Below are positions 18,592 to 35,908 of a stretch of 64,000 nt of DNA, piece after piece; position 1 is the stretch's first letter; each line of letters begins with the position of its first letter. The stretch is from Sorangium cellulosum (lineage in GTDB: Bacteria; Myxococcota_A; Polyangia; Polyangiales; Polyangiaceae), in NCBI RefSeq assembly GCF_002950945.1, contig NZ_CP012673.1:496001-560000 (forward strand), given 5' to 3'. The position numbers and the translations under genes are program-made. Under the pieces are notes generated by a model. That model ran no database searches and had not been told where the DNA came from. It saw nothing but the letters and a program-made list of their open reading frames with translations.

Positions 18592-18612
18592 AATCGCAAT
18601 CGGATTGCAATT
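18592..18612. promoter_or_regulatory. Candidate metal-responsive operator (site 1)
   Basis: The 7-3-7 palindrome TCGCAAT-CGG-ATTGCAA occupies 18594-18610, and AA/TT flanks extend it to 21 bp. It lies between divergent genes starting at 18548 and 18739. It has the same plan as the sites at 23386, 28100, 31341 and 35892. Confidence 0.65.
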
Positions 18613-18738
18613 GCATCGCCGTGGCTCTAGGATGGCGTCCATGCTTGTACTGCGAGCGCATGAGCACGGGCCGAGGGCCTGTGGCCGATGGCAGCGGCGC
18701 GGCGAAAGGCGCCCGCACCCCATCGGGGAGATCCGAGG

Positions 18739-19458
18739 ATGAAGCGGCTCGTCGTGGCAGCCCTGATGGCGGCAGGGGCGACCGGGTGCTGGCTGTTGCT
18801 CCGGACAGAGCGGCCCGCAGAACGTCCACCTGCGGAGGTCAAGGAGGAGGCGCGTCCCGAGCGGGCGCGCCCGCAGCGCCCCCGCGTGGTGCGCCGTGAC
18901 TTGCCGGATCCCGTGGAAATCGAGCTCACGTCGGCGGCGGCGTTGGCGCGGGGGGACGAGCGGCGGGTCGCGGGGAAGCGGCTCCCTCTCCAGCCGGCCG
19001 CCGAGGAGCCTGAAGCCGCGGAGGAGCCCGAGGGGGACGGAGACCCGCGCTCGGAGGCCGAGAAGCTTCGCCGGCCCATCATCCAGGCGATCCGTGGCGA
19101 ACACCCGAGCCCCGTCGCCCGGCGCGAGGCGATGCTCAAGGCGCTCGTGGACTCCGGAGAGGACCGCGGGCGCTGGACGACCGCGGCTCCGGAGATCTTC
19201 GCTTTCTGGCAGCGCGCGATGCCGGACGACGCCGGCGCCGTGCTGGACCCGGAAGCGTCACGCTGCTTCCGGGCCGGGTGCGAGGTCGACGTGCGCTTCG
19301 CCGATGAAGCTGCCTACGAGAGGGCGGCCGCGGTCCTGCGCCACCTCAAAGAGGATGTGCCTGGGCACGGGGGTCGCGTGCAGACGCCGCCGGAGCGCCT
19401 GCCGAGCGGCGAGGTCCAGGCGACCTGGATCCTCCTCCGGCCCGAGCGCACGGACTGA
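18739..19458 (+). CDS. Hypothetical lipoprotein or membrane-anchored protein
   Basis: This 239-residue protein begins MKRLVVAALMAAGATGCWLL, a signal peptide with a lipobox-like ATGC, and continues with a charged Pro/Glu/Arg-rich segment to about residue 110. The folded C-terminal domain (about 110-239) contains a Cys pair in SRCFRAGCEVDVRF and a conserved-looking ATWILLRPER end. Similar proteins with a CxxxCxV pair occur in myxobacteria, but I know no function. The ATG at 18739 follows CCGAGG closely. It is the first gene after candidate operator 1 and is followed 40 bp later by the Ig-like/HxCxH lipoprotein, probably in one operon. Confidence 0.7.
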   Translation: MKRLVVAALMAAGATGCWLLLRTERPAERPPAEVKEEARPERARPQRPRVVRRDLPDPVEIELTSAAALARGDERRVAGKRLPLQPAAEEPEAAEEPEGDGDPRSEAEKLRRPIIQAIRGEHPSPVARREAMLKALVDSGEDRGRWTTAAPEIFAFWQRAMPDDAGAVLDPEASRCFRAGCEVDVRFADEAAYERAAAVLRHLKEDVPGHGGRVQTPPERLPSGEVQATWILLRPERTD

Positions 19459-19498
19459 CGCCCTCGGCACGCAGCCCGAGGGAGACGAGGTGCCCGAA

Positions 19499-21409
19499 AT
19501 GACGATGAGATGGAAGAGAGGCCGAGGAGAGATGCTCGGCGCCGCGGCGCTCACCTGCGCCCTCGCGCTCGGCGCGTGCGCTCCTGAGGCGTCCTCGCCG
19601 ACCGAGCGGCCCGGCGGCGCAGGCGGCGAGGGCAGCGGCGGCGGTGGCGGGGGCGGGGGAGAGGCCGTCGACCAGGTACCTCCGACGGTGGTGTCGATCT
19701 CTCCCGAAGACGGCGCGTCCGGCGTGGCGCCGCACGAGCCGATCGTCATCGCGTTTTCCGAGCCGATGAACGAGGCGCTCGGCACGGTCCGCATCGAGCC
19801 AGGGGACGGGGTGCTGCGGGCCAACGCTGGCTCGTGGAGCGCCGACTGGACCACCCTCACCCTGGCGCCCTCCGCACCGTTGCCCTCCGGAGCGACGGTG
19901 ACGCTCACGGTCGACGTGGACTTCGAGGACAGGGCCGGCAACGCGATGGACGCGCCGTACACGGCCCGCTTCCGGATTGAAGATGTCGCCGCTCCCCACG
20001 TCGTCGCCGCGACGCCGACCGAGGGCGCCGCGCTGGTCCCGATCGCGACCGAGGAGATCACCATCACCTTCAGCGAGCCGATGGACCCCGCAGCGGGGGA
20101 GCTGATCGCGGGCGGCGATCTGGTCCTCGGCGAGAGGCGCTGGGACGAGCGCACGGTCCGTTACGCCGTGAGCGGGCTGGAAGACGACCGGGACTACGCG
20201 CTCTCGCTGGAGGGCTTCCGCGACCTCGACGGCAACCCGCTCGACGGCGCCGTGTTCCTGGCGGACGGCAGGCTCGACTTCACGACCGGCGTGGACTCGA
20301 CGCCTCCCCACGTCGTGACCGCGGCGCCGGCGGAGGGGTCGAGCGACGCCGCGGTACACCTGACAGGCGCGGTCGAGATCACGTTCAGCGAGCCGATGGA
20401 CACCACGGCCGGCGAGGCGACGCTCTCGGGCGACGCGCGCCTCGTCCCGCTCCCGATGGCATGGTCGCCGGATCGCCTGCGGCTCTCGCTCGACGTCGCC
20501 GGGCTCTTGCGCGACGGCGCGGCGTACAGCGTGCTGCTCGAAGGCCTGCTCGACCAGAATGGCAACCCGCTCGACCCGGCGCCGCACCTCGAGGACGGCG
20601 CGCTCGACTTCACGACAGGCCGAGACACGCTGAAGCCGCACGCGGCCGCGTCGTACCCTGCCGAGGGAGATCAGAGGGTCTATCCGACGGAGATCTACGA
20701 CAGCGACTCCATCGTCTCCGAGCGCAAGCGCCTCCGCGTGACGTTCAGCGAGCCCATGGATCCGGGCGTGGCGCAGGCGAGGCTGATCAACACGACATCG
20801 GGCGCTGGCCGCGCGCTGTCGGGGACCTGGGCGCCCGATGCTCTGTCAATCGAGCTCACCGTCCTCCCGTCGGACGACGCCGATCACCCCCTCGACGAGG
20901 GCGTGTTCTACGCGCTCGACCTCCGGACGCTCCGCGACACCGCGGGAAACACGCTCGACACGAGCCATCCGTACCTGGGCAACGGCATCCTCAACTTCAG
21001 GACGACCACGTCCGACGCCGGCCTCAACCACACGTGCCAGCACACGCTGTTCGGTCCGTTCGAGAGCGTGAGCGCGACCGCAGCGCCGGACGGCGCGCCA
21101 TCGACCAGCGCCACCCACACGGAGTTCACGATCGGCCTGCCCTCGAGCGGCGGAGAGCCCACGGGGTATACCCGCGTCAGCGCTCCGGGCGGCGGGACGC
21201 GCGTGTTCTACTTCAATCAGCTCGTGCCCTTCGCGCTGTACGACACGGCCGCGATGGCGGCGCTCTCGCTGACCGTCCGTCCCGCGCCCGATGCCTGCCC
21301 GGGGATCACCCACTACGCCGAGGCGACGCTCGCCGCGGACGTCTGGCACCACGCGAGGTTCGGTCCGGTCTCCAGCCCGCCGCTCAAGATGGTGATCGAG
21401 CCCAGGTAG
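19499..21409 (+). CDS. Lipoprotein with four SbsA-type Ig-like domains and a C-terminal HxCxH-GPF domain
   Basis: This 636-residue surface protein has a lipobox LGAC and a Gly-rich linker. Four Big_5/SbsA-type Ig-like repeats follow, each with the signature ITFSEPMD or a close variant and a DxxGNxLD turn. The C-terminal domain begins near residue 508. It has His511, Cys513 and His515 in HTCQH followed by GPFESVSA, then a later His in THTEF, then CPGITHYAEATL. The same domain occurs alone at 22827, 28206 and 29211. The Ig repeats probably act as a stalk presenting the C-terminal domain outside the cell. It is likely co-transcribed with the gene at 18739. Confidence 0.85.
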   Translation: MTMRWKRGRGEMLGAAALTCALALGACAPEASSPTERPGGAGGEGSGGGGGGGGEAVDQVPPTVVSISPEDGASGVAPHEPIVIAFSEPMNEALGTVRIEPGDGVLRANAGSWSADWTTLTLAPSAPLPSGATVTLTVDVDFEDRAGNAMDAPYTARFRIEDVAAPHVVAATPTEGAALVPIATEEITITFSEPMDPAAGELIAGGDLVLGERRWDERTVRYAVSGLEDDRDYALSLEGFRDLDGNPLDGAVFLADGRLDFTTGVDSTPPHVVTAAPAEGSSDAAVHLTGAVEITFSEPMDTTAGEATLSGDARLVPLPMAWSPDRLRLSLDVAGLLRDGAAYSVLLEGLLDQNGNPLDPAPHLEDGALDFTTGRDTLKPHAAASYPAEGDQRVYPTEIYDSDSIVSERKRLRVTFSEPMDPGVAQARLINTTSGAGRALSGTWAPDALSIELTVLPSDDADHPLDEGVFYALDLRTLRDTAGNTLDTSHPYLGNGILNFRTTTSDAGLNHTCQHTLFGPFESVSATAAPDGAPSTSATHTEFTIGLPSSGGEPTGYTRVSAPGGGTRVFYFNQLVPFALYDTAAMAALSLTVRPAPDACPGITHYAEATLAADVWHHARFGPVSSPPLKMVIEPR

Positions 21410-35067: not shown

Positions 35068-35113
35068 GGGTCCCTTCCGATTCCGGTGTTGTTCGTGCCA
35101 GGGGTCGATCGGG

Positions 35114-35740
35114 TCATTGCGCCCCCGCACCGAGGAGGGCGTCGGCGCCGACCACCACGCCGGTCGCGATGCCGAGCAGCGCTGCCGCGACGACCGAGAA
35201 GCGCCGCGCCGCGCCCCCTCGCGCCAGCGTCCACCCGATGGGCCACGACAGGATCACCGTCAGCGCGATCATGCCGGCGACGGTGCCCAGGCCGAAGAGC
35301 GCGAGGTACGCCGCGGCCCAGAGCCGTGAGGGGATGGTCGTCGTCGCGAGCAGGGCGATGCCCGCGGAGCCCGCGAGGCCGTGGACGAGGCCGACGGCGA
35401 CCGACCGCGCGTGCGCGGCGCCGCCGTGACCGGACGCGGACGCTCGTCGCTGCGGGCGCACGAGGTGCCAGGCGCCGAGCGCGATCAGCATGAACGCGAC
35501 GAGGAGCTGGGCCGCCCTCTCGAACGGCGCAGGGATGCGCAGGCCGAGGAGGACGACGAGCAGCCCGACGCCGAGGAAGGTGGCGGAGTGGCCGAGGCCC
35601 CAGAGGGCCGCGACGAGCGCGGCGCGGCGCGGCCCGCGCTCGCGCTGGAGCAGCGTGGCGATGGCGACGAGGTGGTCGGCGTCCGTCGCGTGGCGCAGGC
35701 CGAGCCCGAGCCCGAGGAGCAGCGCAGACACGCCCGTCAC
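35114..35740 (-). CDS. NiCoT/HupE-type metal permease
   Basis: This 208-residue integral membrane protein has about six hydrophobic segments. The signature RHATDADHLVAI (His17, Asp20, Asp22, His23) lies in the first, and GLGHSATFLG in the next. HX4DH and LGHS motifs define the nickel/cobalt transporter family. Members near zinc-regulated genes may carry other divalent metals, so substrate is open: Ni, Co or Zn. I chose the GTG at 35740 because GGAGGGCGG stands just before it; no in-frame ATG gives a better N-terminus. It is the first gene of an operon (permease, COG0523, WD40), with operator 5 about 150 bp upstream. Confidence 0.82.
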   Translation of the reverse strand: MTGVSALLLGLGLGLRHATDADHLVAIATLLQRERGPRRAALVAALWGLGHSATFLGVGLLVVLLGLRIPAPFERAAQLLVAFMLIALGAWHLVRPQRRASASGHGGAAHARSVAVGLVHGLAGSAGIALLATTTIPSRLWAAAYLALFGLGTVAGMIALTVILSWPIGWTLARGGAARRFSVVAAALLGIATGVVVGADALLGAGAQ

Positions 35741-35891
35741 GGCCGCCCTCCGGCGCCGGGCGCGCGAGGCGCCGCCATGAGGTGAAGCTCTGCTGCGTCC
35801 GGGGACGCCGTGGGGACCGCGCCGCGGCCGCGGTGCGGCGCGGCTTCCGTGTGGTGGGGCATGACGCCCGGGTAGTAGAGCTCGGATGCAT

Positions 35892-35908
35892 TTGCAATAC
35901 AATTGCAA
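35892..35908. promoter_or_regulatory. Candidate metal-responsive operator (site 5)
   Basis: TTGCAAT-ACA-ATTGCAA at 35892-35908 is a perfect 7-3-7 palindrome and the best match to the consensus of the five sites. It lies between the permease operon (start 35740, minus) and the DUF2169 gene (35998, plus). By function the permease operon is the likelier target. Confidence 0.7.

Follow-up and report, generated by a model that had tools for sequence, protein, structure and literature searches.

The nickel sensor Nur of Streptomyces coelicolor has an operator consensus, tTGCaa-N5-ttGCAA (PMC3919588), and the DNA co-crystallized with the Fur protein of Magnetospirillum gryphiswaldense contains TTGCAA-N5-TTGCAA-TTGC (PMC4506495). 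An identical consensus, TTGCAA-N5-TTGCAA, describes five palindromic boxes in a 64,000-nucleotide stretch of Sorangium cellulosum DNA (the window; C1:496001-560000 in a genome assembled as one contig of 14,557,589 bases). An initial annotation of the window had pointed out the five palindromes, all of which we found again in the sequence, and had called the operator unfamiliar; the box is the Streptomyces Nur box with the geometry of the Magnetospirillum Fur operator, so that the DNA word was already known. What the parts of the literature covered by our search did not contain is an account of this box in a zinc regulon of the phylum. We propose that the five boxes are probably the operators of a predicted Zur-like repressor of zinc acquisition, a Fur-family protein encoded at C1:11685440-11685892.

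Box 1 (18594..18610, TCGCAATCGGATTGCAA) reads TCGCAA-N5-TTGCAA and is followed without a gap by TTGCAT (18611-18616), a third half-site. Box 2 (23386..23402, TTGCAATCGCTTTGCGT; TTGCAA-N5-TTGCGT) is weak, with three mismatches, and lies between divergent units, while box 3 (28100..28116, TTGCGATCTAGTTGCAA; TTGCGA-N5-TTGCAA) is abutted at 28117-28133 by what appears by eye to be a degenerate second 17-mer, TTGATC-N5-GTGCAA. Box 4 (31342..31358, ATGCAACTGTGTTGCAT; ATGCAA-N5-TTGCAT) forms a perfect 8-3-8 palindrome when counted from 31341, and box 5 (35892..35908, TTGCAATACAATTGCAA) is a perfect TTGCAA-N5-TTGCAA. Scanning the window with TTGCAAYNNNRTTGCAA at up to three mismatches gave seven matches, with a shuffle mean of 0.90 and none of 100 shuffles reaching seven; the two further matches were at 14362 (three mismatches) and at 18605, where the match overlaps the 18594 site.

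For the whole genome (14.56 Mb), a refined pattern, WTGCAAYNNNRTTGCAW, at up to one mismatch matched five places, compared with none for the reversed control. Four of these are the stronger window sites, the weak 23386 site not being among them, and the fifth (C1:11685933) falls between two genes, about 40 bp past the stop of the Fur-family regulator gene and about 54 bp ahead of the one for a ZIP/ArsP protein. The outer W of the pattern was derived from 42 sites in relatives with our own sites left out, after removal of rows without a nearby gene, cut contexts, duplicates and two TTGAAAATGA boxes. When these sites were symmetrised (84 half-sites), positions that had not been used in the search were also biased, with 74 Y on the inside and 75 W and 73 Y on the outside. 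The refined pattern was chosen after the window sites had been seen and adopted after a two-mismatch scan of the genome had shown no excess.

By comparing the window with a related genome, G277, which carries the block at 90 to 95% identity, we found that none of the 48 half-site letters had changed in the four alignable sites (boxes 1 to 4), against 7 of the 20 spacer letters (hand count; p about 8e-5, hypergeometric). The counterpart of the 35892 site is a weaker box with three mismatches and an abutting TTGCAA, in rearranged or diverged flanks. Across the genus, the HxCxH gene was found at E 1e-25 in our genome and G277 only, out of six genomes, and Sorangium records contain homologues of the HxCxH lipoprotein at up to 93% identity and of the regulator at 92 to 95%. 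A site similar to the one before the ZIP/ArsP gene is found in four of six other loci (G058, G041, So0157-2 and So0008-312, the last two with two to three mismatches); none was seen before this gene in G019 and So ceGT47. Upstream of the regulator gene itself, the Sorangium loci L115-L117, L161 and L162 retain a three-mismatch site.

Recurrence in more distant relatives was assessed starting from genes, which is a fairer test than starting from sites: the 400 bp before each gene were searched for half-sites at up to two mismatches with spacers of 0 to 13. Upstream of zigA, which encodes a COG0523 zinc metallochaperone GTPase, genes over the zigA cut-off from genomes of the same taxonomic family (own left out) had spacer 5 in 10 of 15 cases; the other spacers occurred zero to one times, except for spacer 0 (six) and spacer 11 (five). 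Including five weaker matches, the box is present at 10 of 20 family loci. In other families of the phylum, where 235 genomes gave 44 matches and our own, one family member and 14 further matches were left out, spacer 5 was found in 14 of 28 and the others in zero to three, again except for spacer 0 (six) and spacer 11 (seven). The loci of the regulator clade (one with a stop left out, as well as further matches outside the 28) gave spacer 5 in 8 of 28, with zero to three for the others and four for spacer 0. The exceptional spacers, 0 and 11, share a half-site. In 43 zigA upstream regions, half-sites lay 11 bp apart 22 times (0.1 expected), 6 bp apart 9 times, 17 bp apart 7 times and 26 bp apart 6 times (0.2 expected for each). 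A third half-site directly adjoining the box is thus a repeated feature; it is seen at 18594 and, degenerate, at 28117-28133.

The same test gave a weak result for the NicO permease genes, with the box in 3 of 19 loci and other spacers in zero to two. These loci bear on a different explanation, in which the regulator would be a nickel/cobalt sensor like Nur, the boxes Nur boxes, and the NicO permease and the second COG0523 protein of the window the true targets. The identity of the box with the S. coelicolor consensus speaks for such a sensor, as does a NicO-family permease behind box 5 and behind the boxes of those three loci; however, ZigA is the most regular target, a relative of AztD sits in the cluster, and 16 of the 19 NicO loci lack the box in a test where other spacers reach two. 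We regard a Nur-like sensor as unlikely.

Starting from sites instead, the 60 family genomes, own included, held 134 places at up to one mismatch, compared with 36 for the reversed pattern. We examined 60 stretches that contain such places, taken from 14 genomes; some genomes with many places, such as G050 and G043, were left out. Of 64 one-mismatch sites, 15 (in 13 stretches) were upstream of, or at the beginning of, a gene homologous to one of the window or to the regulator gene, the products being ZigA, the second COG0523 protein, DUF1826, the His-rich protein, TonB receptors, lipoproteins, the AztD-like protein and the regulator. Part of the checks proposed by the initial annotation was carried out in this way, and in related genomes boxes were seen again before zigA, DUF1826, COG0523, TonB receptor and regulator genes. 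Tandem 17+17 boxes are also present in relatives, at loci L140 and L148.

Some arrangements in these relatives are worth recording in their own right. Near zigA in G018, a genome with two clade genes, the boxes TTGAAAATGATTTTCAA and TTGAAAATGACTTTCAA (L140 5757 and 9761) resemble the actinobacterial Zur box. M43 metalloprotease genes were noted at L076, L082 and L018 5906-6838: they follow boxes in G056 and G014, and one is found near our own regulator gene. In G051 (L088), a CDF cation exporter gene and the unit of the second COG0523 and WD40 genes flank a perfect box, as if import and export shared one operator.

The genome contains three Fur-family genes, a Fur (C1:12230), a PerR-like gene (C1:2967996) and the predicted regulator, whose product matches the Fur-family domain PF01475 with 46.4 bits (cut-off 23.1). 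Its structure model (predicted local distance difference test, 80.7; predicted template modeling score, 0.58) matches PerR, Fur and Zur structures alike, so the model does not settle the type. Among sequence profiles, Fur chains ranked best, followed by PerR and Mycobacterium tuberculosis Zur and then by S. coelicolor Zur and 3eyy, which we take to be Nur; profiles of this kind do not put the clade next to known Zur proteins. Among the best 120 of 434 homologues, those that bear a name in the source records go by Fur family regulator, ferric uptake regulator or transcriptional repressor.

Sequence alignment of the regulator with 28 clade relatives (29 sequences) reveals that H44, D57, R58, R85, H100, C105, C108, C113, C144 and C147 are invariant, that E87 is kept in 27 and H102 in 28 sequences, and that the four cysteines of the structural zinc site (C105, C108, C144 and C147) are present in all 29. 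C113, H100 and H102 are also present in 120 of 120 sequences when the best 120 of the 434 homologues are considered. Aligning the clade member L168 with Bacillus subtilis PerR (2fe3), and carrying our numbering over through the 29-sequence alignment, placed E87, H100, H102 and C113 on PerR positions 85, 91, 93 and 104, presumably the regulatory ligands of PerR. At the position of C113, our own Fur and PerR-like proteins carry E and D. It is plausible that the invariant cysteine aligned with PerR 104 gives the clade a zinc site. Nickel-bound Nur uses histidines, and a cysteine at this position, being suited to zinc, also speaks against the Nur-like sensor. For the Zur proteins from Escherichia coli, from M. 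tuberculosis and from S. coelicolor, sensory sites that mix N, O and S have been described (PMC6103462), and the predicted E-H-H-C set would match such a site.

In S. cellulosum So ceGT47, an insert of about 1.5 kb (L118 6325-7812), which encodes a protein with an integrase core and a transposase helix-turn-helix domain, splits the regulator gene. This strain is a possible natural regulator mutant.

The distribution of the clade was compared with those of zigA and the box. We scored a genome as having the clade at E <1e-25, a line drawn after a gap had been seen between strong hits and hits of about 1e-13. In the 60 family genomes, zigA (E 1e-80) was found in 20 of 40 clade genomes and in none of the 20 others (p 3.5e-5), and box counts were 106 against 23 for the control in 39 clade genomes (own left out) and 25 against 13 in the other 20.

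A number of observations weigh against a zinc repressor acting on these boxes. At up to two mismatches, TTGCAAYNNNRTTGCAA matched 12 places genome-wide compared with 15 for the reversed control, and therefore the simple motif alone is no genome-wide standout; 4 of the 12 are concentrated in the 17.3-kb stretch of the window that holds the boxes, 1 is the site beside the regulator gene, and the remaining 7, which by eye and from first residues only lie near or in genes without an evident zinc role, were treated as background. In relatives, 49 of the 64 one-mismatch sites are not before homologues of the zinc cluster (sites before such homologues number 0 of 11 in G059, 0 of 5 in G003 and 0 of 5 in G044), so that zinc genes alone do not account for the excess of boxes across genomes. 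No box within 400 bp at two mismatches was found for 5 of the 15 family zigA genes over the cut-off or for any of the 5 weaker ones, and the boxless genes include those of both other Sorangium genomes in that draw, one of which, G019, has a three-mismatch site 157 bp upstream of zigA. Of the regulator loci, 20 of 28 have no upstream box, and our own regulator promoter shows, by eye, a four-mismatch site only. G043 (10 boxes against 3) and G044 (5 against 0) have an excess of boxes without a strong clade match. The NCBIfam Zur equivalog NF008646 did not match our protein at E 1e-3, and of two relatives one scored 23.3 bits (cut-off 167) and the other gave no match, so we call the protein Zur-like rather than a Zur of that model. 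In other bacteria, this box or one like it is read by a nickel sensor and by an iron-type Fur. Finally, the box was absent from all 30 family ZnuB loci, with the whole locus searched, contrary to the link to znuABC that the initial annotation had expected.

The two-mismatch count and the 49 sites away from the cluster homologues are what one would expect if the boxes were chance AT-rich matches in the promoters of a GC-rich genome. This explanation is already contradicted by the spacer tests, in which spacer 5 exceeds its neighbors for both zigA and the regulator, by the excess of half-sites at a distance of 11 bp, and by G277, where half-sites are kept while spacers drift; we consider it extremely improbable.

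The excess in G043 and G044 instead raises the question of whether the Fur or the PerR-like protein reads the boxes. Magnetospirillum Fur binds TCGCAA-N5-TCGCAA-TTGC (PMC4506495), and a two-mismatch site is found some 2 kb ahead of the PerR-like gene. That site, however, falls between convergent genes, the PerR-like gene is preceded by what appears by eye to be a different repeat, TTGAGAAACTTTCTAA, and the box excess tracks mainly the third clade, whose own gene is preceded by the box in the eight loci described above. A role of either paralog as the reader of the boxes is quite improbable in our judgment.

We thus return to the third Fur-family protein, which its regulon and predicted site would make Zur-like, although it falls outside the NF008646 model. 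Where the initial annotation had left a choice between the Zur box of the lineage and the site of another repressor, a metal regulon, most likely for zinc, that has a single type of operator and a regulator from the Fur family is supported, and the association with znuABC is not.

The 18594 site lies between a minus-strand gene for a Cys-rich predicted lipoprotein (17220..18548; an open reading frame with no Pfam or NCBIfam match) and plus-strand genes for a 256-residue protein of unknown function (18688..19458; an open reading frame with no family match) and an immunoglobulin-like (Big_5) protein (19499..21409; PF13205) that by eye ends in an HxCxH region. The 23386 site separates a minus-strand unit from a plus-strand receptor gene. 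The first gene of the unit encodes an HxCxH lipoprotein (22827..23354; open reading frame, no family), and the second a protein that we call AztD-like only, because it scored 184.8 bits against the NF038015 cut-off of 400 (21463..22827). The receptor (23405..26083; PF03544 and PF07715) is TonB dependent and has TonB_C fused at its N terminus, so that a TonB_C domain and a TonB-dependent receptor plug are joined in one protein. The claim that the boxes precede genes with a zinc flavor stands overall, except that the AztD-like gene belongs to the unit starting at 23354, behind the 23386 site, and not behind 18594.

Further along the plus strand, a lipoprotein gene (26947..27894; no Pfam or NCBIfam match) has homologues in relatives that are preceded by a box. 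The 28100 site is upstream of two genes for HxCxH lipoproteins, with zigA (29996..31246, plus strand; NF038288, 631.2 bits, cut-off 600) farther on. The first of them (28206..29170, plus strand) consists of two overlapping open reading frames, the frame being broken near 28497 in a G-rich run; an intact copy of 321 residues exists in G277, and the break is either natural or a sequencing error. The second (29217..29795, plus strand) has no Pfam or NCBIfam match. The 31342 site precedes the DUF1826 gene (31448..32131, plus strand; PF08856, 170.1 bits), and the 35892 site lies upstream of four minus-strand genes, which encode a NicO/NiCoT-family permease (35114..35779, start by eye; PF03824, 30.9 bits against a cut-off of 27.7, scored for 35114-35737), the second COG0523 GTPase (33724..35067; PF02492 and PF07683), a WD40 protein (32699..33733; family match) and a protein that is His rich by its sequence (32135..32491; no family match).

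How zinc would cross the inner membrane is a related question. The ZnuB family PF00950 is present at E 1e-20 in 26 of the 60 family genomes and was not found at that threshold in our genome, G019 or G058. ZnuABC, an ATP-binding cassette (ABC) transporter, seems to be outside the regulon, and a divergent ABC importer may exist in Sorangium. The 630-residue protein beside the regulator combines a partial ZIP match with an ArsP_1 permease domain; it was the sole match in a ZIP search of our genome at E 1e-3, below the Pfam cut-off, and it also resembles the efflux family SO_0444 (125.1 bits, cut-off 300). The NicO permease and the ZIP/ArsP protein are candidates for an inner-membrane zinc importer. 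A mutual exclusion of NicO and ZnuB was considered and dropped, since ZnuB presence was not convincingly associated with the clade (p 0.10) or with zigA (p 0.17).

From these sequence data we infer zinc as the metal, binding to the boxes, repression, and a sensory site made up of E87, H100, H102 and C113. In the proposed mechanism, a zinc-holding repressor encoded far from the cluster would dock on the boxes and shut the genes off, and zinc shortage would make it leave them. The TonB receptor, the HxCxH lipoproteins, the AztD-like carrier, the NicO-family permease and two COG0523 chaperones would then be produced. Because a third half-site abuts some of the boxes, a second dimer might dock there. 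It is also conceivable, as a tentative suggestion, that a myxobacterial zinc repressor arose separately from the known Zur types, out of a Fur/PerR-type protein in which one metal-binding aspartate became the invariant cysteine, that it reads a box serving nickel and iron in other phyla, and that the zinc import it governs does without ZnuABC in Sorangium, with NicO or ZIP/ArsP as the importer of the inner membrane.

A likely zinc regulator and its operator can in this way be named for a phylum in which the literature reached by our search offered none, and the cluster suggests a zinc import that does not depend on an ABC importer. If the proposal is true, the zinc-starvation response of members of the phylum could be read from sequence, through the box before the zinc chaperone gene zigA. 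A change of metal without a change of operator in Fur-family proteins becomes a directly testable question, and So ceGT47, with its interrupted regulator gene, offers a natural test strain.

Known zinc regulons share parts of this arrangement. The Zur box of Streptomyces and other actinobacteria, TGAAAATGATTTTCA (7-1-7), has the same half-site distance when written TTGAAA-N5-TTTCAA, and its half-site differs in one letter, with A where the window box has C; that regulon includes a COG0523 gene, as here, but its core also includes znuABC (PMC2823685), whereas here no ZnuB locus carries the box. Caulobacter Zur controls TonB-dependent receptors, as we propose for the window, but from a box of the GTTA-5N-TAAC type and with an ABC-2 type transporter in its regulon (PMC4176598). 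Haas et al. (2009) described Zur-linked COG0523 clusters with DUF1826 and a COG0523 subfamily that clusters with WD40 genes, both with counterparts here, in a main text from which the words deltaproteobacteria and myxo are absent (PMC2770081). The operator of M. gryphiswaldense feoAB1, TCGCAA-N5-TCGCAA-TTGC, has the same spacing and an abutting third half-site, but serves an iron-transport gene, and Fur bound it with manganese in assays (PMC4506495). S. coelicolor Nur acts on sodF and nickel uptake (PMC3919588), whereas the genes here are mostly zinc genes and the predicted regulator belongs to another Fur-family clade. One DNA word is apparently common to nickel, iron and zinc sensors.

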